Source: Aurantimonas manganoxydans SI85-9A1
GTDB taxonomy: Bacteria > Pseudomonadota > Alphaproteobacteria > Rhizobiales > Rhizobiaceae
Length of the DNA stretch: 64,000 bases
Direction: 5' to 3'
Assembly: GCF_000153465.1 (NCBI RefSeq)
Contig: NZ_CH672387.1
Coordinates: 2,891,903-2,955,902 of the forward strand
Under the pieces are notes generated by a model that saw only the letters and a program-made list of their open reading frames with translations, did no database searches and was not told the DNA's origin. Within the stretch, counting starts at the first letter, position 1; the number at the start of each line of letters is the position of its first letter. The position numbers and the translations under genes are program-made. Of the stretch, positions 19,262-29,867 are shown in pieces.

Positions 19262-20230
19262 TTAACGGAAGAGCGACAGCACCGACTGCGAGGACGAGTT
19301 GGCGATCGACAGCGCCTGGACGCCGAGCTGCTGCTGCGTCTGCAGCGCCTTCAGCCGGGTCGACTCCTCGGTCATGTCCGCATCGACCAGCGTACCGACG
19401 CCCTTGTCGATGGAGTTTCGCAGGTTGGAGACGAACTCCGACTGGATATCCATGCGGCTCTTGGAGGCACCGAGATTGGAAGCCGCCGTGGTCATGTCCG
19501 AAAGGATCTTGTCGACGACCCGCACCATGGCGTTCACCTGTGCATCCGTTGTGGTGCTGGCCAGTGCAATCACCGTACCCGTGGCCGAAGTCGTTTCGCC
19601 GGTGACGTCGATCAGTCGGTAATTGTCCGGCGTGGTCGTCGGCGTCGCCAGCAGCTGGTCGGCATCGTAGTCCTTGGTCAGCAGACCCAGGGTCTCGTCG
19701 TCGGTTCCGATCAGCGTCATGCTGGAGACGTTCAGGCCGATGGTGCCGACCGAGACGTTGCCGCCGGAATCGCGGTTGAACGACGAGACGACGTTCTTGG
19801 TGCCGGCTGCGGTCGCGGTCGAGTTCTGCAGCCAGTTCTCGCCCGAGAAGCTGGCCGAGGACGCGATGCTGGACAGCTGGTTCTTCAGCTCGGTCAGTTC
19901 CGAATTGATCTTGGTCTTGTCGACGCCCGGCTCGAGAGCCGCCAGCAGCTTGGACTTGATTTCGGAGGTGACGTCGATCGCCGCTTCCATGCCCGTATAG
20001 GCCACGTCGACCTTCGCCTGGCCAAGGCCGAGGGCGTCCTCGACGGCGCCGAGCGCCTTGTTGTCGGACCGCATCGTGGTCGCGATCGACCAGTAGGCGG
20101 CGTTGTCCGACGCCGCACCGACGCGGTAACCGGTCGAGATGCGGTTCTGGGTCTGGTCGAGGCTGCTGTTGATTGCCGACAGGCTCTGCAGAGCCGTCAT
20201 CGCCGACGTATTGGTGTTGATGGAAGTCAT
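19262..20230 (-). CDS. fla: Flagellin, copy 1 (mosaic)
   Basis: A 322-residue flagellin. The N-terminal D0/D1 (MTSINTNTSAMTALQSL ... RISTGYRVGAASDNAAYWSI) and C-terminal D1/D0 (ADMTEESTRLKALQTQQQLG ... SVLSLFR) match the other copies. The central region (VSSMTLIGTDDETLGLLTKD ... VVDKILSDM) resembles copy 8 instead of copies 2-7, which suggests recombination. It is exported by the flagellar system and polymerises into the filament. Its leader (20231-20340) has the shared hairpins and its 3' end the shared terminator. Confidence 0.95.
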   Translation of the reverse strand: MTSINTNTSAMTALQSLSAINSSLDQTQNRISTGYRVGAASDNAAYWSIATTMRSDNKALGAVEDALGLGQAKVDVAYTGMEAAIDVTSEIKSKLLAALEPGVDKTKINSELTELKNQLSSIASSASFSGENWLQNSTATAAGTKNVVSSFNRDSGGNVSVGTIGLNVSSMTLIGTDDETLGLLTKDYDADQLLATPTTTPDNYRLIDVTGETTSATGTVIALASTTTDAQVNAMVRVVDKILSDMTTAASNLGASKSRMDIQSEFVSNLRNSIDKGVGTLVDADMTEESTRLKALQTQQQLGVQALSIANSSSQSVLSLFR

Positions 20231-20394
20231 TGTGTTGTCCCGTAACGCGGAATTTCAAACAGGGGACAGTCCGGATCGGCCGGCATAACGAAGCGGCATC
20301 ATGCCCGTGACCGACGATCTGTTCGCCGGTCACCTCGCTATGGGGGCACCATCGGCCGGCATCGACTACCGGCTACTTAAATTCATTGGTTAAC
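20231..20394 (-). promoter_or_regulatory. Flagellin leader, copy 1: structured 5' region and TTAA repeat
   Basis: In the gene direction: GTTAA-N9-TTAA at 20377-20394, then a hairpin at 20307-20333 (GTGACCGGCGA, loop ACAGA, TCGTCGGTCAC; 11 pairs, one G-U), then TGTCCC (20268-20263) that can pair with GGGACA (20241-20236). GGGA is the only Shine-Dalgarno-like sequence before the ATG. This may allow post-transcriptional control, for example by FlbT. The transcription start is unknown. Confidence 0.6.
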
Positions 20395-20495
20395 GCGTGG
20401 GCAGGACCGGCCCGGATCGCAGTCATCCTCAACGAAAGATTAACAAGACCGCTAAAAGTCGAGAGATAGGCTGGCAGGCTTTTATGGGCAGACAC

Positions 20496-20527
20496 GAAAA
20501 CGGGCCCGGCCTTTCGGCCGGACCCGT
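20496..20527 (-). terminator. Terminator of flagellin copy 2
   Basis: Gene direction: ACGGGTCCGGCC, loop GAAA, GGCCGGGCCCGT, then TTTTCG. It is nearly the same hairpin as after the neighbouring flagellins. Confidence 0.82.
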
Positions 20528-20554
20528 CTGTCTCCAGTGTCGAGATGTCGTGTC

Positions 20555-21454
20555 TTAACGGAAGAGCGACAGCAGCGACTGCGAGGAGGAGTTGGCGATC
20601 GACAGCGCCTGGACGCCCAACTGCTGCTGCGTCTGCAGCGCCTTCAGGCGGGTCGATTCCTCGGTCATGTCCGCATCGACCAGCGTGCCGACGCCCTTCT
20701 CGATGGAGTCGCGCAGGTTGGAGACGAACTCCGACTGGATATCCATGCGGCTCTTGGCGGCGCCGAGGTTGGAAGCAGCGGTGGTCATCGCACCGAGGGC
20801 CTCGTCCACGTCCGAGATCATCGTCGAGATGTTCGCGTCGGTGGTGGCACCGGTCAGCGTGAAGGTGGAGACGACCGTGCCACCCGTGCGACCCGTGTCG
20901 AGAATGCCGGCCGCGCCGTTCGAATCGAACAGCTTGGTCTTCGACGTGTCGACGCCGATGGTGCCGACCGAGACGTTGCCGCCGGAATCGCGGTTGAACG
21001 ACGCGACGACGGACTTCGTCGCCGTGTAGCCCGCAGCACCGCTGTTGACCGACAGCCAGTTCTCGCCCGAGAACGACGCCGACGAGGCGATCGAGGTGAG
21101 CTGGCCCTGCAGTTCCTTGATTTCCGAGTTGATCTTGGTCTTGTCGACACCCGGCTCGCGCGCGGCAACCAGCTTCGACTTGATCTCGTCGACGACGTCG
21201 ATGGCGGCGGTCATGCCGGTATAAGCCGTATCAACCTTCGCCTGGCCGAGGCCGAGGGCGTCCTGAACGGCACCGAGCGCCTTGTTGTCGGACCGCATCG
21301 TGGTCGCGATCGACCAGTAGGCGGCGTTGTCCGACGCCGCACCGACGCGGTAGCCGGTGGAGATGCGGTTCTGGGTCTGGTCGAGGCTGCTGTTGATTGC
21401 CGACAGGCTCTGGAGAGCCGTCATTGCCGACGTATTGGTGTTGATCGAGGTCAT
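20555..21454 (-). CDS. fla: Flagellin, copy 2
   Basis: A 299-residue flagellin with conserved terminal domains (SINTNTSAMTALQSL; KALQTQQQLGVQALSIANSS) and a short central domain (VGTIGVDTSKTKLFDSNGAAG) close to copies 3 and 7. N-terminal residues are nearly identical to copy 1. Its leader and terminator belong to the shared set. Confidence 0.96.
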   Translation of the reverse strand: MTSINTNTSAMTALQSLSAINSSLDQTQNRISTGYRVGAASDNAAYWSIATTMRSDNKALGAVQDALGLGQAKVDTAYTGMTAAIDVVDEIKSKLVAAREPGVDKTKINSEIKELQGQLTSIASSASFSGENWLSVNSGAAGYTATKSVVASFNRDSGGNVSVGTIGVDTSKTKLFDSNGAAGILDTGRTGGTVVSTFTLTGATTDANISTMISDVDEALGAMTTAASNLGAAKSRMDIQSEFVSNLRDSIEKGVGTLVDADMTEESTRLKALQTQQQLGVQALSIANSSSQSLLSLFR

Positions 21455-21618
21455 TGTGTTGTCCCGTAACGCGGAATTTCAAACAGGGGACAGTCCGGAT
21501 CGGCCGGCATAACGAAGCGGCATCATGCCCGTGACCGATGATGTGTTCGCCGGTCACCTCGCTATGGGGGCACCATCGGCCGGCATCGACTACCGGCTAC
21601 TTAAGCCAGATAGTTAAC
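21455..21618 (-). promoter_or_regulatory. Flagellin leader, copy 2
   Basis: Nearly the same as copy 1. TTAA-N9-TTAAC is at 21601-21618 and the hairpin at 21531-21557 (GTGACCG/CGGTCAC, loop of 13). The UGUCCC/GGGACA pairing next to the start codon is retained. Confidence 0.6.
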
Positions 21619-21710
21619 GTCAGGTCCGGGCCCGGCTTTGCCGTGGCATCCTGAATCAAGCGCTAATGAAACCTTGCGGAATCGCTGCAATGCGCGCCCG
21701 CATCAACGCG

Positions 21711-21741
21711 AAAACGGGCCCGGCCTTGCGGCCGGACCCGT
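21711..21741 (-). terminator. Terminator of flagellin copy 3
   Basis: Gene direction: ACGGGTCCGGCC, loop GCAA, GGCCGGGCCCGT, then TTTTCG. Confidence 0.82.
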
Positions 21742-21767
21742 CGGTCTCAGTGTCGAGGTGTCGTGTC

Positions 21768-22661
21768 TTAACGGAAGAGCGACAGCAGCGACTGCGAGGA
21801 GGAGTTGGCGATCGACAGCGCCTGCACACCCAGCTGCTGCTGCGTCTGCAGCGCCTTCAGGCGGGTCGACTCTTCGGTCATGTCCGCATCGACCAGCGTG
21901 CCGACACCCTTCTCGATGGAATCGCGCAGGTTGGAGACGAACTCCGACTGGATATCCATGCGGCTCTTGGCAGCGCCCAGGTTCGAGGCAGCGGTCGTCA
22001 TCAGCCCGATCGCTTCGTCGACGTCCGAGATCATCGTCGAGATCGCCGCGTCGGTCGTCGCGCCGGTCAGAGCCAGCGTCGACACGACAGTGGTGCCGGT
22101 GCGTGCGCCGTCCAGGATACCGTTGGTATTGTCGGTATCGAACAGCTTCGTCTTGGTGGTGTCGACGCCGATGGTACCGACCGAGACCGTGCCGTCAGCG
22201 GCGCGGTTGAACGAGGCCACGACGTTCTTGGTGCCGGCGGCGATACCCGTGCCGATCGACAGCCAGTTCTCGCCCGAGAAAGAGGCGGAGGACGCGATCG
22301 AGGTCAGCTGGCCCTGCAGTTCCTTGATTTCGGACTGGATCTTGGTCTTGTCGACACCCGGCTCGCGCGCGGCAACCAGCTTGGTCTTGATCTCGTCGAC
22401 CACGTCGATGGCGGCGGTCATGCCGGTATAGGCCGTATCGACCTTCGCCTGGCCGAGGCCGAGGGCGTCTTCGACGGCGCCGAGCGCCTTGTTGTCGGAC
22501 CGCATCGTGGTCGCGATCGACCAGTAGGCGGCGTTGTCCGACGCCGCACCGACGCGGTAGCCGGTCGAGATGCGGTTCTGGGTCTCGTCGAGGCTGTTGT
22601 TGATCGCCGACAGGCTCTGCAGAGCCGTCATTGCCGAAGTATTGGTATTGATCGAGGTCAT
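21768..22661 (-). CDS. fla: Flagellin, copy 3
   Basis: A 297-residue flagellin. Termini match the other copies. The central domain (IGTGIAAGTKNVV, GVDTTKTKLFDTDNTNGILD) is closest to copy 7 although five genes lie in between. It is part of the filament. Confidence 0.96.
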   Translation of the reverse strand: MTSINTNTSAMTALQSLSAINNSLDETQNRISTGYRVGAASDNAAYWSIATTMRSDNKALGAVEDALGLGQAKVDTAYTGMTAAIDVVDEIKTKLVAAREPGVDKTKIQSEIKELQGQLTSIASSASFSGENWLSIGTGIAAGTKNVVASFNRAADGTVSVGTIGVDTTKTKLFDTDNTNGILDGARTGTTVVSTLALTGATTDAAISTMISDVDEAIGLMTTAASNLGAAKSRMDIQSEFVSNLRDSIEKGVGTLVDADMTEESTRLKALQTQQQLGVQALSIANSSSQSLLSLFR

Positions 22662-22824
22662 TGTGTTGTCCCGTAACGCGGAATTTCAAACAGGGGACAG
22701 TCCGGGCCGGCCGGTATAACGAAGCGGCATCATGCCCGTGACCGGCGTTCCCTATGCCCGTCACCTCGCCATGACGCTACTTTGCGCCGCCGGACCTACC
22801 CACTACTTAAATTTGATAGTTAAC
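22662..22824 (-). promoter_or_regulatory. Flagellin leader, copy 3
   Basis: TTAA-N9-TTAAC at 22807-22824. The hairpin at 22738-22764 reads GTGAC-g-GGC ... GCC-g-GTCAC, with an inner stem different from copies 1-2 but still paired. The UGUCCC/GGGACA helix at the start codon is conserved. Confidence 0.58.
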
Positions 22825-22902
22825 GACATCTGCCGATCTTCGCTTCAAAGTTCATCCTGAATCAAATGCTAAGATGCGGGCTAACCGCCCTGCCCCGAAC
22901 GC

Positions 22903-22935
22903 AAAAACGGGCCCGGCCTTGCGGCCGGACCCGTT
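22903..22935 (-). terminator. Terminator of flagellin copy 4
   Basis: Gene direction: AACGGGTCCGGCC, loop GCAA, GGCCGGGCCCGTT, then TTTTGCG. Confidence 0.82.
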
Positions 22936-22960
22936 CGCTTCAGAATGGCTGCGTTCCGGA

Positions 22961-23938
22961 TTAGCGGAACAGCGACATCAGCGACTGCGAGGAGGAGTTG
23001 GCGATCGACAGCGCCTGCACGCCCAGCTGCTGCTGCGTCTGCAGCGCCTTCAGGCGGGTCGACTCTTCCGTCATGTCCGCATCCACCAGCGTGCCGACAC
23101 CCTTCTCGATGGAATCGCGCAGGTTGGAGACGAACTCCGACTGGATATTCATGCGGCTCTGGGCGGCGCCGAGATTGGACGCGGCGGTGGTCATGCTCTT
23201 CAGCGCCGTGTCGACATTCGAGATCATCGCGTCGATGACGGTCTCGACGGTCTCGGCGGTCGTGTAGGCGCCATCGACCGCGGCCTGGTTGAGGACCGCC
23301 GTGCTGATGTCGATGTCCATGACGTTGCCGGCGATCTTCGTGGCATCGTCACCAATCAGCGCATCCTTGTTGAGGATACCGTCGTCGTCTGCCGGTGTCG
23401 GGACACCCGCACCATTGTTGCCGATGAGCTTCACCGCCGATGCGTCGATGGCGATCGTCCCGACAGAGACGGCGCCCGCGCTGCTGCGGTTGAACGAGGC
23501 GACGACGTTCTTGGTGACGGCCGCTCCGTCGAAATTCAGCCAGTTCTCGCCGGAGAAGGAGGCCGATTCGGAGATCGACGTCAGCTGGTTCTTCAGTTCG
23601 GCGATCTCGGACTGGATCTTGTTGCGATCGACACCCGGCTCGCGCGCGGCAACCAGCTTGGTCTTGATCTCGTCGACAACGTCGATGGCGGCCTTCATGC
23701 CGGTATAGGCCGTATCGACCTTCGCCTGGCCGAGGCCGAGGGCGTCTTCGACCGCGCCGAGGGCCTTGTTGTCCGAGCGCATCGTGGTGGCGATCGACCA
23801 GTAGGCGGCGTTGTCCGACGCCGCACCGACGCGGTAGCCGGTCGAGATGCGGTTCTGCGTCTCGTCGAGGTTGTTGTTGATCATCGACAGGCTCTGCAGA
23901 GCCGTCATCGCCGACACGTTGGTATTGATCGAGGTCAT
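22961..23938 (-). CDS. fla: Flagellin, copy 4
   Basis: A 325-residue flagellin starting at MTSINTNVSAM. The frame is open further upstream, but that part is the leader. The central domain is distinct (ASAVKLIGNNGAGVPTPADD ... DALIGDDATKIAG) and longer than in copies 2, 3 and 7. The C-terminus has SRMNIQSEFVSNLRDSIEKG and ends SLMSLFR. Confidence 0.96.
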   Translation of the reverse strand: MTSINTNVSAMTALQSLSMINNNLDETQNRISTGYRVGAASDNAAYWSIATTMRSDNKALGAVEDALGLGQAKVDTAYTGMKAAIDVVDEIKTKLVAAREPGVDRNKIQSEIAELKNQLTSISESASFSGENWLNFDGAAVTKNVVASFNRSSAGAVSVGTIAIDASAVKLIGNNGAGVPTPADDDGILNKDALIGDDATKIAGNVMDIDISTAVLNQAAVDGAYTTAETVETVIDAMISNVDTALKSMTTAASNLGAAQSRMNIQSEFVSNLRDSIEKGVGTLVDADMTEESTRLKALQTQQQLGVQALSIANSSSQSLMSLFR

Positions 23939-24098
23939 GTTGTGTCCCGTAACGCGGAAAAATGAACAGGGGGACAGTCCGGGTTGGCCGGCATAGCGAA
24001 ACGGCATCATGCCTGTGGCCGGAACTCTGGCAGACCACTTCGCTATACCCTCAGGCTGTCAGCTTATCGCTACGTTTCGCTTAAGTAGAATGGTTAAC
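23939..24098 (-). promoter_or_regulatory. Flagellin leader, copy 4
   Basis: TTAA-N9-TTAAC at 24081-24098. The hairpin at 24015-24038 is GUGGUC ... GGCCAC (one U-G pair), replacing the GUGACC/GGUCAC of copies 1-2 by changes on both strands. TGTCCC (23976-23971) can pair with GGGACA (23948-23943). Confidence 0.6.
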
Positions 24099-24171
24099 GC
24101 TTTACTTCGTGGAAGCTTTCTGCTGCTGCATGGGGAGATGGACAGCGTCATGCAGCTTTCTTCCCGAACGC

Positions 24172-24203
24172 AAAAACGGGCCCGGCCTTGCGGCCGGACC
24201 CGT
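24172..24203 (-). terminator. Terminator of flagellin copy 5
   Basis: Gene direction: ACGGGTCCGGCC, loop GCAA, GGCCGGGCCCGT, then TTTTTG. Confidence 0.82.
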
Positions 24204-24229
24204 CTGTCTCAATGTCGAGGTGTCGTGTC

Positions 24230-25159
24230 TTAGCGGAAGAGGGACAGCAGCGACTGCGAGGAGGAGTTGGCGATCGACAGCGCCTGGACGCCCAGCTGTT
24301 GCTGGGTCTGCAGCGCCTTCAGGCGGGTCGATTCCTCGGTCATGTCCGCATCGACCAGCGTGCCGACACCCTTCTCGATGGAATCGCGCAGGTTGGAGAC
24401 GAACTCCGACTGGATATCCATACGGCTCTTGGCGGCACCGAGGTTCGAGGCACCGGTGGTCATCGACTGGATCGCGCCGTCGACGGCCGAGATCATCTCG
24501 CTGATGTCGGTGTCGTCGATGTTCGCTGCGGTGATGTCGAGTGTGCTCACCGATACGGTGGCAGCGCCGGCGCCCGTGGTGGTGAAGGCCGTGTTCAGGA
24601 TGCCGTTGTTGGCACCGCCGACGCCGACCGTGTCGTCACCGAACAGCTTCGTACCACCGATGACGATGTCGATCGTGCCGACCGACACCGCACCGGCCGC
24701 GCTGCGGTTGAAGGACGCCACCACGCTCTTCGACGTGTTTGCGGCACCGTCGAAGGACAGCCAGTTCTCGCCGGAGAAGGAGGCGGACGAGGCGATCGAG
24801 GTCAGCTGACCCTGCAGTTCCTTGAGTTCCGCCTGGATCTTCGACTTGTCGACGCCCGGCTCGCGCGCTGCGACGAGCTTCGACTTCATCTCATCGACGA
24901 CGTCGATGGCGGCCTTCATGCCGGTGTAGGCGGTGTCGACCTTCGCCTGGCCGAGACCGAGCGCGTCCTCGACGGCGCCGAGCGCCTTGTTGTCCGAACG
25001 CATCGTGGTGGCGATCGACCAGTAGGCCGCGTTGTCCGACGCCGCACCAACGCGGAAGCCGGTCGAAATGCGGTTCTGGGTCTCGTCGAGATTGCTGTTG
25101 ATCATCGACAGGCTCTGGAGAGCCGTCATTGCCGACACGTTGGTATTGATCGAGGTCAT
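24230..25159 (-). CDS. fla: Flagellin, copy 5
   Basis: A 309-residue flagellin starting MTSINTNVSAMTALQSLSMI. The central domain (VSVGTIDIVIGGTKLFGDDT, then a Gly/Ala/Thr-rich segment) is unique in the array. The conserved C-terminus ends SLLSLFR. Confidence 0.96.
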   Translation of the reverse strand: MTSINTNVSAMTALQSLSMINSNLDETQNRISTGFRVGAASDNAAYWSIATTMRSDNKALGAVEDALGLGQAKVDTAYTGMKAAIDVVDEMKSKLVAAREPGVDKSKIQAELKELQGQLTSIASSASFSGENWLSFDGAANTSKSVVASFNRSAAGAVSVGTIDIVIGGTKLFGDDTVGVGGANNGILNTAFTTTGAGAATVSVSTLDITAANIDDTDISEMISAVDGAIQSMTTGASNLGAAKSRMDIQSEFVSNLRDSIEKGVGTLVDADMTEESTRLKALQTQQQLGVQALSIANSSSQSLLSLFR

Positions 25160-25313
25160 GTTGGTGTCCCGTAACGCGGAAAATGAACAGGGGGGACAGT
25201 CCGGGCTGGCCGGGATAGCGAAACGGCTTCATGCCCGTGGCCCAATTGGCCACCTCGCTATGCCCGCAACATGCCAGCGGCTGGCTACCAAGCGCCTAAG
25301 GAATGTGGTTAAC
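25160..25313 (-). promoter_or_regulatory. Flagellin leader, copy 5
   Basis: CTAA-N9-TTAAC at 25296-25313. The compact hairpin at 25237-25253 is GTGGCC, loop AATTG, GGCCAC. The UGUCCC/GGGACA pairing near the ATG is kept. Confidence 0.6.
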
Positions 25314-25417
25314 ATATTCTTTTTCAAAACGAATTCGAAACGGTAGCAAATTTCAACCATTCTTCTGTCGATGGCGGCTATTTGGTCCGCCCCCGCTGAC
25401 CGCCCGTCCGCGCATGC

Positions 25418-25449
25418 AAAAACGGGCCCGGCCTTGCGGCCGGATCCGT
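25418..25449 (-). terminator. Terminator of flagellin copy 6
   Basis: Gene direction: ACGGATCCGGCC, loop GCAA, GGCCGGGCCCGT, then TTTTTGC. The stem has one mismatch more than the sister terminators. Confidence 0.78.
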
Positions 25450-25475
25450 CGGTCTCAGTGTCGAGGTGTCGTGTC

Positions 25476-26435
25476 TTAGCGGAAGAGCGACAGCAGCGAC
25501 TGCGAGGAGGAGTTGGCGATCGACAGCGCCTGGACGCCCAGCTGCTGCTGGGTCTGCAGGGCCTTCAGCCGGGTCGACTCTTCCGTCATGTCCGCATCCA
25601 CCAGCGTGCCGACGCCCTTCTCGATGGAATCGCGCAGGTTGGAGACGAACTCCGACTGGATATCCATGCGGCTCTTGGCGGCGCCGAGGTTCGAGGCAGC
25701 CGTCGTCATCCGCTGCAGGGCATCGTCGACACCGCTGATGTAGGAGTTCAGCGTCGTCACGTCGCCGGCAGCGTCCGTCAGGGCCGAGATGTCGAGGGTC
25801 GAGACGTTGAAGCCAGCAGCGGTCTGATCGGCGAGGTAGCTGCCGTCGGCTGCGCTGTACATACCGTCGAGGATGCCGGTACCGGCGGTGGCGGCGTCCG
25901 TGGCGGCGTCGAACAGCTTGGTCTTCGAGGTGTCGACCTCGATCGTGCCGACCGAGACGGCGCCTGCACTGTCACGGTTGAAGGAGGCGACGACCGACTT
26001 GGTGGCGTTGGCCGGTGCCGTGGAATCGACCGACAGCCAGTTTTCGCCCGAGAAGGAGGCCGAGGTCGCGATCGAGGTCAACTGACCCTGCAACTCGGTG
26101 ATTTCGGACTGGATCTTGGTCTTGTCGACGCCCGGCTCGCGCGCCGCGACCAGCTTCGCCTTGATCTCGTCGACCACGTCGATGGCGGCGTTCATGCCGG
26201 TGTAGGCCGTATCGACCTTCGCCTGGCCGAGGCCGAGCGCGTCCTCGACGGCGCCGAGGGCCTTGTTGTCCGAGCGCATGGTGGTGGCAATCGACCAATA
26301 GGCGGCGTTGTCGGAGGCGGCACCGACGCGGAAGCCGGTCGAGATGCGGTTCTGGGTCTCGTCGAGGTTGCTGTTGATCATCGAGAGGCTCTGCAGAGCC
26401 GTCATCGCCGACGTATTGGTATTGATCGAGGTCAT
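25476..26435 (-). CDS. fla: Flagellin, copy 6
   Basis: A 319-residue flagellin starting MTSINTNTSAM; the longer upstream open frame covers the leader only. The central domain is expanded (KLFDAATDAATAGTGILDGM ... ADQTAAGFNVSTLDISALTD). The C-terminus is the shared type. Confidence 0.96.
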   Translation of the reverse strand: MTSINTNTSAMTALQSLSMINSNLDETQNRISTGFRVGAASDNAAYWSIATTMRSDNKALGAVEDALGLGQAKVDTAYTGMNAAIDVVDEIKAKLVAAREPGVDKTKIQSEITELQGQLTSIATSASFSGENWLSVDSTAPANATKSVVASFNRDSAGAVSVGTIEVDTSKTKLFDAATDAATAGTGILDGMYSAADGSYLADQTAAGFNVSTLDISALTDAAGDVTTLNSYISGVDDALQRMTTAASNLGAAKSRMDIQSEFVSNLRDSIEKGVGTLVDADMTEESTRLKALQTQQQLGVQALSIANSSSQSLLSLFR

Positions 26436-26595
26436 GATGGTGTCCCGTAACGCGGAAAAATGAACAGGGGGACAGTCCGGATCGGCCGGCATAACGAAAC
26501 GGCATCATGCCCGTGGCCGAAGAACAAATGGCCACCTCGCTATAGGGACACCATGCCAGTAGCTGGCTACCAAGCACCTAAGGAAGGTGGTTAAC
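26436..26595 (-). promoter_or_regulatory. Flagellin leader, copy 6
   Basis: CTAA-N9-TTAAC at 26578-26595. The hairpin at 26513-26535 is GTGGCC, 11-nt loop, GGCCAC. UGUCCC/GGGACA is retained at the start codon. Confidence 0.6.
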
Positions 26596-26697
26596 GCTTT
26601 CTGTTTCCTGCAATTTCTGAAGTGAGCCGGATTGCGGCGTTTTCCGTCACCGGGCGGCAGGCCTCCCTGCCCTGCCCGACAGAGACCGTCTGCAACG

Positions 26698-26729
26698 CAA
26701 AACGGGTCCGGCCTTGCAGCCGGACCCGT
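26698..26729 (-). terminator. Terminator of flagellin copy 7
   Basis: ACGGGTCCGGC / GCCGGACCCGT is a perfect 11-bp stem, followed by TTTTGCG in the gene direction. Confidence 0.85.
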
Positions 26730-26755
26730 CGATCTCAATGTCGAAGCGGCGTGTC

Positions 26756-27649
26756 TTAGCGGAAGAGCGCCAGCAGCGATTCCGAGGAGGAATTGGCGAT
26801 GGACAGCGCCTGGACGCCGAGCTGCTGCTGCGTCTGCAGCGCCTTCAGGCGGGTCGACTCCTCGGTCATGTCCGCATCGACCAGCGTGCCGACACCCTTC
26901 TCGATGGAGTCGCGCAGGGTCGAGACGAATTCCGACTGGATGTCGACGCGGTTTTTGGCGGCGCCCAGGTTCGAGGCGGCCGTCGTCATGGCCTGCAGCG
27001 CCTCGTCCACGTCCGAAATCATGGCGGAGACCTGAGCGTCCGTCGTCCCAGCGGTAATCGTGAAGGTGGAGACGACGGTGCCGTTGGTGCGTCCCACGTC
27101 CAGAATGCCATCGGTGTTGTCGGTATCGAACAGCTTGGTCTTGGTGGTGTCGACGCCGATGGTGCTGACCGAAACCGAGGCATCGGCCGCGCGGTTGAAC
27201 GAGGACACGATCGTCTTGGTGCCGGCCACGATGCCGGTGCCGATCGACAGCCAGTTCTCGCCCGAGAAGGAGGCCGAGGTCGCGATCGAGGTGAGCTGGC
27301 CCTGCAACTCGGTGATTTCCGCCTGGATCTTGGTCTTGTCCACGCCCGGCTCACGAGCCGCGACCAGCTTCGCCTTGATCTCGTCGACCACGTCAATGGC
27401 GGCCTTCATGCCGGTATAGGCGGTGTCCAGCTTGGCCTGGCCGAGACCGAGCGCGTCCTCGACGGCGCCGAGCGCCTTGTTATCCGAGCGCATCGTGGTG
27501 GCGATCGACCAGTAGGCGGCGTTGTCGGACGCCGCGTTGACGCGATAGCCGGTCGAGATGCGGCTCTGCGTCTCGTTGAGGTTGTTGTTGATCATCGACA
27601 GGCTCTGGAGAGCCGTCATAGCCGACACATTGGTGTTGATCGAGGTCAT
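26756..27649 (-). CDS. fla: Flagellin, copy 7
   Basis: A 297-residue flagellin. The central domain (IGTGIVAGTKTIV, GVDTTKTKLFDTDNTDGILD) is nearly that of copy 3. Small changes in otherwise invariant parts (KNRVDIQSEFVSTLRD; SSSESLLALFR) set it apart. Confidence 0.96.
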   Translation of the reverse strand: MTSINTNVSAMTALQSLSMINNNLNETQSRISTGYRVNAASDNAAYWSIATTMRSDNKALGAVEDALGLGQAKLDTAYTGMKAAIDVVDEIKAKLVAAREPGVDKTKIQAEITELQGQLTSIATSASFSGENWLSIGTGIVAGTKTIVSSFNRAADASVSVSTIGVDTTKTKLFDTDNTDGILDVGRTNGTVVSTFTITAGTTDAQVSAMISDVDEALQAMTTAASNLGAAKNRVDIQSEFVSTLRDSIEKGVGTLVDADMTEESTRLKALQTQQQLGVQALSIANSSSESLLALFR

Positions 27650-27833
27650 GATGATGTCCCGTAACGCGGAAAACTGAATGGGGGGACAGTCCGGGTTGGC
27701 CGGTATAGCGAGACGGCATCATGCCCTACGTTCCCGACCTGCAAGGTGGAACGCATCGCTATGAGCGACGACTATCGCGGCAGGCTCCTTCCGAGGCGTT
27801 AACGGTAACGCCCCGTTGTCTTTCATGGTTAAC
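27650..27833 (-). promoter_or_regulatory. Flagellin leader, copy 7 (stem fully replaced)
   Basis: The hairpin at 27728-27754 is GCGUUCC ... GGAACGU (7 pairs, one G-U), with an inner ACCU/AGGU stem. The sequence is unrelated to copies 1-6 but lies at the same place between TAGCGA and GGGCATGATGCC. The UGUCCC/GGGACA helix is kept. Upstream there are two GTTAAC elements, at 27798-27803 and 27828-27833, instead of the TTAA-N9-TTAAC form. Confidence 0.6.
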
Positions 27834-27889
27834 GGATGCTTTCGGGCCGTCTCCCCTCACCCCGGCCTGCGCAGTACTTCAGAACGCAA

Positions 27890-27913
27890 AAAGCCGCCCC
27901 GGAGGGCGGCTTT
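27890..27913 (-). terminator. Terminator of flagellin copy 8
   Basis: AAAGCCGCCC / GGGCGGCTTT (10 bp, 4-nt loop) followed by TTTTTGCG in the gene direction. It is a different hairpin from the other seven. Confidence 0.85.
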
Positions 27914-27964
27914 CGTTCGTCATACCGGCGTCCCGCCAGGGGCGCCGCCGGAGTCTTGCGTCGG

Positions 27965-28933
27965 TCAGTTCTGGAAGAGCTGCAGGATCGCCTGGCTCGA
28001 GGAATTGGCGATCGACAGCGCCTGGACGCCGAGCTGCTGCTGCGTCTGCAGCGCCTTCAGCCGGGTCGATTCCTCGGTCATGTCCGCATCCACCAGCGCG
28101 CCGATGCCCGACGAAATCGAGTCGGTGAGATTGGAGACGAAGTTCTGCTGCAGCTCGATACGCGACTTGGCGGCGCCGAGATTGGCGGCGACGTTGGTCA
28201 TGTCCTTGAGGATCGCGTCGACGACCTTGATCATCGACGAAATCTCGAGGGTGGTGGTCGTGCCGGTCAGTGCAATCTCGGTGCCGCTCGCGGCCGTGCC
28301 CGTCGCGCCGGCATCCAGCAGAACGTAGTCGGTGGCGTCGCCGATCGGAGTGCTGATGCCGTCGGCATGGTAGTTCTTGGTCAGAACACCGGTGGTCTCG
28401 TTCACCGTGCCGATCAGGGTCATCGCCGTCACGTCGACGGTGATGGTGCCGATCGAGACCGCGCCGGTGGAGTCGCGGTTGAAGGAGGCGACGATGTCCT
28501 TGGAGCCGGCAGCCACCGACGCGTCGTTCTGCAGCCAGTTCTCTCCGGAGAACGAGGCGGAGGACGCGATGCTCTGCAGCTGCTTCTTCAGCTCGCTGAT
28601 TTCCGACTGGATCTTGGTCTTGTCGACACCCGGCTCGCTGGCCGCGACCAGCTTGGCCTTGATCTCGTCGACGACGTCGATGGCGCTTTCGAGCGCGGTG
28701 TAGGCGATGTCGACCTTGGCGGCGCCAAGCCCCAGCGAATCCTCGACCGCCGACAGGGCCTTGTTGTCCGAGCGCATGGTGGTAGCGATCGACCAATAGG
28801 CGGCATTGTCCTTGGCTTCGGCAACGCGGAAGCCCGTCGAGATGCGGTTCTGGGTCGCATCCATCGAACGGTTGGTCGCCTGCAGCGTCTGCAAGGCCGC
28901 CATGGCCGCGATATTGGTATTGATGCTGGTCAT
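27965..28933 (-). CDS. fla: Flagellin, copy 8 (divergent)
   Basis: A 322-residue flagellin, the outlier of the array. The N-terminus differs (MTSINTNIAAMAALQTLQAT, RVAEAKDNAAYWSI) and the C-terminus ends QAILQLFQN. Its central domain (VTAMTLIGTVNETTGVLTKN) resembles that of copy 1. It has its own leader without the shared hairpins, a TTAA-N7-TTAA box upstream and its own terminator. It may be the ancestral or differently regulated flagellin. Confidence 0.95.
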   Translation of the reverse strand: MTSINTNIAAMAALQTLQATNRSMDATQNRISTGFRVAEAKDNAAYWSIATTMRSDNKALSAVEDSLGLGAAKVDIAYTALESAIDVVDEIKAKLVAASEPGVDKTKIQSEISELKKQLQSIASSASFSGENWLQNDASVAAGSKDIVASFNRDSTGAVSIGTITVDVTAMTLIGTVNETTGVLTKNYHADGISTPIGDATDYVLLDAGATGTAASGTEIALTGTTTTLEISSMIKVVDAILKDMTNVAANLGAAKSRIELQQNFVSNLTDSISSGIGALVDADMTEESTRLKALQTQQQLGVQALSIANSSSQAILQLFQN

Positions 28934-29027
28934 GACACTCTACCCTCGGTGCTAACTTCGCCCGCATTCCGCCGGCGACGCACGGAGGCCCGCCTGCGCT
29001 CGCCCCCATTGGTCATGAAGGTAGTTT

Positions 29028-29049
29028 GTTAACCTTAATGGGGAGTTAA
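29028..29049. promoter_or_regulatory. CtrA-like box upstream of flagellin copy 8
   Basis: TTAA at 29035-29038, seven bases, TTAA at 29046-29049, adjoining GTTAAC at 29028-29033. It is about 100 bp upstream of the copy 8 ATG. Read on the minus strand it is TTAA-ctcccca-TTAA. Confidence 0.5.
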
Positions 29050-29093
29050 GGCTGACGGCGCGGCAGGCGGGACGCGCCCGGAAAATCGCGTCG

Positions 29094-29867
29094 TCAGAAG
29101 AAGGATCGGACCAGGGATCCGACCAGCATGTTCCAGCCGTCGATCAGGATGAAGAACAGGATCTTGAACGGCAGCGAGATGATCGTCGGCGGCAGCATCA
29201 TCATGCCCATCGACATGGTCAGGGTCGCGACGATCATGTCGATCACCAGGAACGGCAGAACGATGAGGAAGCCGATCTCGAAGCCGCGGCGCAGCTCGGA
29301 GATCATGAAGGCCGGGATCAGCTCCCGCAGATCGACGTCGCGCTCGTCAGCAGCGCCCTGCTCTTCCGGCTCGACCCGCTCACGGCTGGTGGCCGCGGCG
29401 ATATCGCCGAACAAAGTCAGGTCTTCCGGCCGCACCTGCGTCAGCATGAAGTCCTTGAACGGCTCGCTGATCCGGTAGAACGCCTCCTCCTCGGTGATCT
29501 CGTTGTTCAGGAGCGGCTGCAGGCCGTCGTTCCAGGCCCGGTCGAAGGTCGGCGCCATGACGAAGAAGGTCATGAACAGCGACAGCGAGATCAGGATCAG
29601 GTTGGCCGGCGTCGTCTGAAGGCCGAGACCGGTGCGCAGGATCGACAGCGCGATGACGATGCGCGTGAAGGACGTGACCATGACCAGGAGGCCCGGCGCG
29701 ATCGACAGGATGGTGACGATGCCGAAGAGCTGGACGATGCGGCCGGACGCGGTCGAATCGCCAGCCGGCAGGAGGGCGGCGAGATCGGGCAGCCCTGAGG
29801 TCTGGGCGGTCTGTGCGAGAGCTGGTCCCGCAAAGAGCAGCGCCGCCAGAAAGAGGAGCGTTCTCAT
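29094..29867 (-). CDS. fliP: Flagellar export apparatus protein FliP
   Basis: A 257-residue inner-membrane protein. A cleavable signal (RTLLFLAALLFAGPALAQ) is followed by the FliP signature TSFTRIVIALSILRTGLGLQ and membrane helices with FEIGFLIVLPFLVIDMIVA near the C-terminus. FliP forms the export gate with FliQ and FliR, neither of which is in the window. The stop of fliL overlaps the start (ATGA). Confidence 0.96.
   Translation of the reverse strand: MRTLLFLAALLFAGPALAQTAQTSGLPDLAALLPAGDSTASGRIVQLFGIVTILSIAPGLLVMVTSFTRIVIALSILRTGLGLQTTPANLILISLSLFMTFFVMAPTFDRAWNDGLQPLLNNEITEEEAFYRISEPFKDFMLTQVRPEDLTLFGDIAAATSRERVEPEEQGAADERDVDLRELIPAFMISELRRGFEIGFLIVLPFLVIDMIVATLTMSMGMMMLPPTIISLPFKILFFILIDGWNMLVGSLVRSFF

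Follow-up and report, generated by a model that had tools for sequence, protein, structure and literature searches.

The leaders of seven tandem flagellin genes in Aurantimonas manganoxydans SI85-9A1 carry what is, on well-supported comparative grounds, a structured cis-regulatory RNA, built as a three-way junction with a further hairpin directly after it. We analyzed a 64,000-nucleotide stretch of contig NZ_CH672387.1 (hereafter the window), in which a sequence-only reading had noted a hairpin with compensatory base changes in the leaders of flagellin copies 1–7 and had proposed FlbT as a plausible binding partner. We consider it likely that this element is an order-wide RNA class through which the messages of a motility regulon are jointly recognized and controlled after transcription. 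It would then be either a riboswitch class of a new kind, responding to a messenger of the motile-sessile switch, or the first RNA target to be defined for an FlbT subfamily, one that has turned into a global regulator with a reach that extends to cyclic di-GMP (c-di-GMP) enzymes and an adhesin-type exporter. The interpretation that we favor, at a probability of about 0.55, is that the element acts as a translational control element recognized by FlbT-B, one of two FlbT types, as its candidate partner.

Architecture of the leader element

The seven genes lie on the minus strand with starts at 20230, 21454, 22661, 23938, 25159, 26434 and 27649 (from open reading frames (ORFs) and the sequence itself), and all seven hairpin stems quoted by the sequence-only reading are present in the minus-strand leaders. 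This variable hairpin, here P2, proved to be the least conserved arm of a three-way junction, whose other parts are P1, a 7-bp closing stem (ATAGCGA with TCGYTAT in the window copies), and P3, a nearly invariant hairpin of the form GGC-AUGAN-GCC (GGCATGATGCC in the window copies). Directly after the junction comes P5, a CCGG-N5-CCGG hairpin, followed by P6, a TGTCCC/GGGACA stem that ends 4–5 bases before the ATG in the window copies. The picture of a flagellin-leader hairpin was thus too narrow, as the hairpin is only one arm and the element also stands before non-flagellin genes; P1, the pairing inside P3 (previously quoted only as a flank), P5, P6 and a copy elsewhere in the genome all go beyond it. 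The flanks of the hairpin are not strictly constant, the exact pattern TAGCGA...GGCATGATGCC holding in five of the seven copies because copy 3 has TGGCGA and copy 5 has GGCATGAAGCC.

Two covariance models were used: R1, built from the seven window leaders, and R2, a core model of 60 diverse sequences. R2 started from 107 matches, from which 7 partial, weak or oddly aligned ones, rows longer than 110 bases and redundant rows were removed to leave 62, of which 60 entered the model; because it contains window copy 1 and the distant copy described below (L008), its matches to those two are not independent. On the minus strand, element copy 1 (P1-P2-P3-P5) occupies 20269..20347 (R2 score 72.2 bits, this copy being included in the model), with P1 arms at 20335-20341 and 20285-20291, P2 at 20307-20333, P3 at 20295-20305, P5 at 20271-20283, and P6, read directly from the sequence as were all P6 stems, at 20236..20268 adjoining the start codon (20230) of the first of the seven genes, flagellin copy 1 (19262..20230, minus strand, Flagellin_N PF00669 and ORF). 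The remaining minus-strand elements and their P6 stems lie at 21493..21571 and 21460..21492 (copy 2, 72.0 bits), 22700..22778 and 22667..22699 (copy 3, 68.3 bits), 23977..24052 and 23943..23976 (copy 4, 66.2 bits), 25199..25267 and 25165..25198 (copy 5, with P3 as GGCATGAAGCC, 62.9 bits), 26475..26549 and 26440..26473 (copy 6, 66.4 bits), and 27689..27768 and 27655..27688 (copy 7, with the unrelated P2 sequence GCGTTCC/GGAACGT, 53.0 bits). Flagellin copy 8 (27965..28933, minus strand), the leader of which was read and searched with R2, serves as an internal negative, with no R2 match in 27769-29320 up to E=10 upstream of its start at 28933.

An eighth copy of the layout was found in the same genome, in a distant flagellin leader (L008), with P1 as GGCGGGA/TCCCGTC, P3 as GACATGATGTC and P6 as GTCCC/GGGAC. 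R1, which contains only the seven window copies, matched it at 35.5 bits (E 1.7e-6 in 428 kb) and did not report it in a whole-genome search with stricter filters.

Two further features of the array were seen. GTTAAC and TTAAG boxes about nine bases apart are conserved 5' of the element in copies 1–6 (e.g., 20370-20395) and are perhaps a promoter or a CtrA-like site. Near-identical GC-rich hairpins (GGGCCCGGCC...GGCCGGACCCG) of terminator-like appearance lie 3' of several flagellin copies (window positions 20500-26760), some of them weakly matching Rfam CC0196.

Covariation and folding as RNA

Within the window alone, covariation is weak. Two-sided changes affect 3 pairs (mean 1.4 in shuffles; 3 reached in 37 of 500) and 5 cells (mean 1.9 in shuffles; 5 reached in 5 of 500); all 3 pairs fall in P2, and a control in which the partners were moved by one column did about as well (3 pairs, 3 cells; covariation score 0.104 versus 0.099 unslid). 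In this alignment the P2 of copy 7 sits one base out of register and was counted against the structure. With P5 and P6 invariant and P1 changing on one side only, the seven copies by themselves say little on those stems.

Covariation over 112 distinct sequences, on the other hand, strongly supports a selected structure. Aligning these relatives to R2, we found that 88.2% of cells pair (74.7% in shuffles) and that two-sided changes occur in 20 of 23 pairs and 425 cells, compared with 13.0 pairs and 131.8 cells in shuffles and 24–75 cells in controls slid by one to three columns, figures to be read knowing that the alignment was fitted to the structure model, which favors the structure, and that related sequences are not independent. 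Its rows were drawn from 100 sources, picked by hand among about 300 loci to limit near-duplicates. The idea that both arms of the hairpin change together, weak in the window, holds over more genomes, with a signal far above the controls. Every P1 and P2 pair shows such changes, while P3 and P5 are mainly invariant, and each position of the P3 loop AUGA is 99–100% conserved. When column pairs were ranked by corrected G-score, structure pairs took 8 of the first 10 places and 15 of the first 40, and most of the other places went to pairs in the P5 region. Single-sequence folding was mixed (z-scores -0.7 to -3.1): P1, P2 and P3 are present in the folds of copies 1, 2, 4, 5 and 7, and for copies 3 and 6 and L008 other folds were preferred that do not show the junction, so that the case is carried by comparison and not by energy.

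The sequence-only reading had left RNA and DNA structure side by side, and the substitution pattern favors RNA. Counts of G-U versus A-C combinations are 55/11 in P1, 19/6 in P5, 32/24 in P2 and 6/9 in P3, which supports folding as RNA of the gene strand; because a clear G-U excess is confined to P1 and P5, the strand asymmetry rests on these two stems. Such asymmetry is unexpected for a double-stranded site, as it would be if the inverted repeats were an operator or cruciform bound by a transcriptional regulator. This DNA-level explanation would fit the location of the repeats downstream of the GTTAAC/TTAAG boxes in copies 1–6 as well as P2 and P3, where the G-U excess is missing, but the element also keeps its position before the start codon and P2 keeps its pairing while varying in length and sequence, and we regard it as very improbable. 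Still less credible is that a leader peptide starts at the AUG of P3 and that its coding by an upstream ORF accounts for the conservation of the sequence. An ATG is indeed present in the P3 of 85 of 87 leaders, but its frame relative to the flagellin is spread 31/33/21 over the 85, on which we rejected this explanation. Moreover, a one-base length difference shifts the frame between window copies 1–3 and 4–7, and 49 of these ORFs end short of the assigned flagellin start and 36 extend beyond it, counts affected by some leaders in which the start was assigned to an in-frame ATG lying downstream of the real one.

Distribution and downstream genes

Searching the family of the source genome with R1, we found matches in 66 of 101 genomes (E up to 0.1), 65 of them among the 83 genomes with a flagellin and the remaining one (G297, E 0.008) among the 18 without. 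Across the order Rhizobiales (Hyphomicrobiales), R2 gave 103 matches (E up to 0.01) in 67 of 297 genomes and 33 of 123 genera; in most genomes of this sample no copy was detectable with the strict filters of the wide genome searches, which lose weak matches. In a sample of the class, 5 of 385 genomes matched, namely the source genome, another member of the order and three genomes outside it with weak matches (L208–L210, E 0.006–0.009) that have no flagellin downstream and were taken as chance, and no convincing element was found with R2 in the class sample outside the order. Among the matches listed for a DNA pattern of the element were Mesorhizobium, Aminobacter, Aurantimonas, Jiella, Phyllobacterium, Nitratireductor, Brucella, Microvirga, Chelatococcus and Azorhizobium.

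Flagellin genes dominate downstream. Among the 95 of 103 order matches that were read (30+60+5), 81 precede a flagellin (29+50+2), and the other eight matches, seven copies from the source genome plus L059, all do so as well. The 14 read matches not before a recognized flagellin comprise five before protoglobin-domain and two before HAMP-domain proteins, which look like chemotaxis receptors over the first 290–360 residues seen; one (L203, G096:C1:1982149-1982236) before a 285-residue protein that has no Pfam hit but retains an AYWSI motif resembling that of flagellins and passes a phmmer search for flagellin; and six weak ones. L276, L369 and L373 (E 0.006–0.01), in coding-like or unrelated surroundings, were taken as chance, and L269, L273 and L372 (E 0.0018–0.0094) were not counted as targets. 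For the DNA pattern, a flagellin was found within 260 bases in 76 of 94 matches in loci L062–L141, the set that this test covers (another 36 pattern loci lie outside it); the remaining 18 are four at locus ends, three of which start a flagellin, and 14 from Microvirga.

Microvirga departs from this pattern. Twelve genomes, chosen for having the element, yielded 57 matches, of which 48 were read, with target labels resting on Pfam for representatives and on by-eye similarity for the rest. A first set of 30 comprises 12 ABC exporters, 10 proteins of MHYT type (one with a broken-looking frame), 5 GGDEF-EAL, 1 of CHASE4 type and 2 TackOD1, and a second set of 18 comprises 4 matches before flagellin (two of them in tandem), 4 before PAS proteins, 6 of CHASE4 type, 1 MHYT, 1 RTX-repeat protein and 2 unclear. 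Such a target set is familiar from c-di-GMP control. In one Microvirga locus (L350, G785:C45:229065-229203) two elements stand in tandem before a single flagellin gene, and in another (L358, G787:C437:1001-1086) the element precedes an ORF that is transposase-like by eye and has no Pfam hit, perhaps a displaced copy.

FlbT-B as candidate partner and known systems

Comparing 43 hand-picked FlbT sequences (L309–L348, L366–L368), we found two sharply separated groups, A and B. One set of 23, taken from element-bearing genomes and including three from Microvirga, is entirely type B (at least 109 bits to the B query, at most 39.5 to A). The other 20 are all type A (at least 135 bits to A, at most 46 to B); eight of them are the second FlbT of a genome with the element, and 12 come from genomes that gave no element match. 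A B-type profile run on the 297 order genomes separated 77 that score at least 141.9 bits from a next score of 62.8, and the element was detected in 65 of these 77 and in 2 of the 220 without FlbT-B, including 0 of 133 that have an FlbT of another kind. One of the two exceptions (G124) is an 86%-complete genome in which FlbT-B was not detected and whose congener (G047) has both; the other (G370) has its sole match in a coding-like stretch. Overall, of the 67 order-sample genomes with the element, 65 encode an FlbT, as do 12 of 12 Microvirga genomes tested, and the FlbT was of type B in the 3 Microvirga read. Four genomes in which both types were read (G046, G154, G356, G339) have the element 12–13 kb from the B copy. 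Neither the window nor the loci retrieved by DNA search contain an FlbT gene. The earlier suggestion of FlbT as partner thereby gains indirect support, narrowed to one subfamily. FlbT-B is probably the FlbT of the lateral-type (Rhizobiaceae-type) flagellum, and the two subfamilies apparently correspond to one per flagellar system. According to the available text of one study, Rhizobiaceae and relatives have a lateral-type system and nine genera have both systems (PMC6406911).

If FlbT-B is the partner, it would recognize the invariant P3 and P5, and its binding would act through P6 on how accessible the ribosome-binding site is, or on the stability of the mRNA, so that flagellin, chemotaxis and some c-di-GMP genes would be timed to flagellar assembly. 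P6, taken as a GUCC/GGGAC stem over the stretch before the start codon, is formed by 66 of the 101 leaders that are followed by a flagellin-like ORF and by none of the 9 that precede other genes (two rows cut by locus ends being omitted), which points to a translational-control route for flagellins and not to a general one. A review presents binding of FlbT to the leader of flagellin mRNA as a proposal, with decay promoted and expression lowered in Caulobacter and activation proposed in Brucella (PMC4347634). Two further papers also place FlbT on such leaders and describe repression in Caulobacter that requires a flagellin-like co-repressor, secreted later, with flagellins and Che proteins as targets (PMC9812332, PMC7591256), a gene set with which that of the element agrees.

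Several observations weigh against recognition by FlbT-B. The element went undetected in 12 of the 77 FlbT-B genomes (10 of them in genera where other genomes have it), the Fisher test of co-occurrence ignores relatedness, and element and FlbT-B could merely be inherited together with the whole flagellar system, of which FlbT-B seems a part, so that the co-occurrence is confounded. About a third of flagellin leaders lack P6, as do the other targets seen, and a clear G-U excess is missing in P2 and P3. The GGDEF/EAL, PAS and exporter targets of Microvirga would not be expected of FlbT and would be in line with a c-di-GMP riboswitch. Nor did profile comparison support a likeness of the FlbT N-terminus to the RNA-binding protein CsrA (hhalign probability 6.5 and 0.1), an idea we dropped. 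No solved structure proved related to FlbT-B by sequence, a search up to E=10 giving two matches at chance level (the better at 0.19).

Co-occurrence with the flagellar system would fit any of its components. The factor that acts in trans on the element may instead be FlaF, some other RNA-binding protein, a small RNA or an RNase, with FlbT-B only traveling along. FlaF is described as coupled to FlbT in the part of PMC9812332 available to us, but no specific candidate was found, co-occurrence having been run for FlbT alone among the genes of the system, and we hold this explanation to be rather unlikely. Equally doubtful, though it too may apply, is that the element represents a new riboswitch class sensing a small molecule of the motile-sessile switch, with c-di-GMP as first candidate ligand and flagellin, chemotaxis and c-di-GMP genes under its control. 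The compact junction with its invariant loop and hairpin, the tandem copies before one flagellin in L350, and the MHYT- and CHASE4-GGDEF-EAL, PAS, ABC exporter and RTX targets of Microvirga would be in keeping with it; we retain it for the c-di-GMP genes and the tandem copies. A ligand sensor, however, needs no FlbT-B, and without FlbT-B no convincing element was seen in the order sample outside the 86%-complete genome; flagellins follow most matches read, and no known riboswitch of Rfam matches.

Rfam 15 at the gathering score gave 0 matches over the window; over the array (19500-29500) up to E=10 it gave 12 weak matches and over ten relative loci 3, none on the element. Our literature search revealed, among the matches listed, no apparent description of the element, and as most subscription journals lay outside it, absence from print is not shown; two start-site papers (PMC3616915, PMC10469942) give, in the text available, no position for these leaders. 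The flg-Rhizobiales RNA (RF01736) resembles the element in being a structured RNA whose name ties it to flagellar genes of the same order, but differs in sequence and layout, consisting of three stem-loops in the excerpt available (PMC3765529) and having an end that reads like a start codon and coding sequence. We rejected it as the same RNA, with no match over the array up to E=10 and matches in 0 of 20 genomes (the source genome and 19 relatives). Its Rfam matches (L012–L031) occur in several other families, in 23 of 199 genomes, 5 above the gathering score and most below. The c-di-GMP riboswitches share similar kinds of target genes with the Microvirga copies, but the element lacks an Rfam match and ligand binding here would be hypothetical.

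Closest is FlbT control of flagellin leaders in Caulobacter and of fliC in Brucella, which likewise involves a flagellin 5' leader, a post-transcriptional mode and an FlbT in the genome. What differs is that here a defined, covarying RNA structure extends over an order, accompanied by FlbT-B only and with binding as a candidate property, and that its Microvirga targets include GGDEF/EAL, PAS and exporter genes. This suggests that rhizobia and their relatives share RNA-level motility control, reaching chemotaxis and c-di-GMP signaling in some genera. One review regards the mode of action of FlbT on flagellin mRNA as unsettled (PMC4347634). Since the element is compact, covaries and goes with one FlbT subfamily, this question can be tested directly, with the genomes that carry both FlbT types as an internal control.

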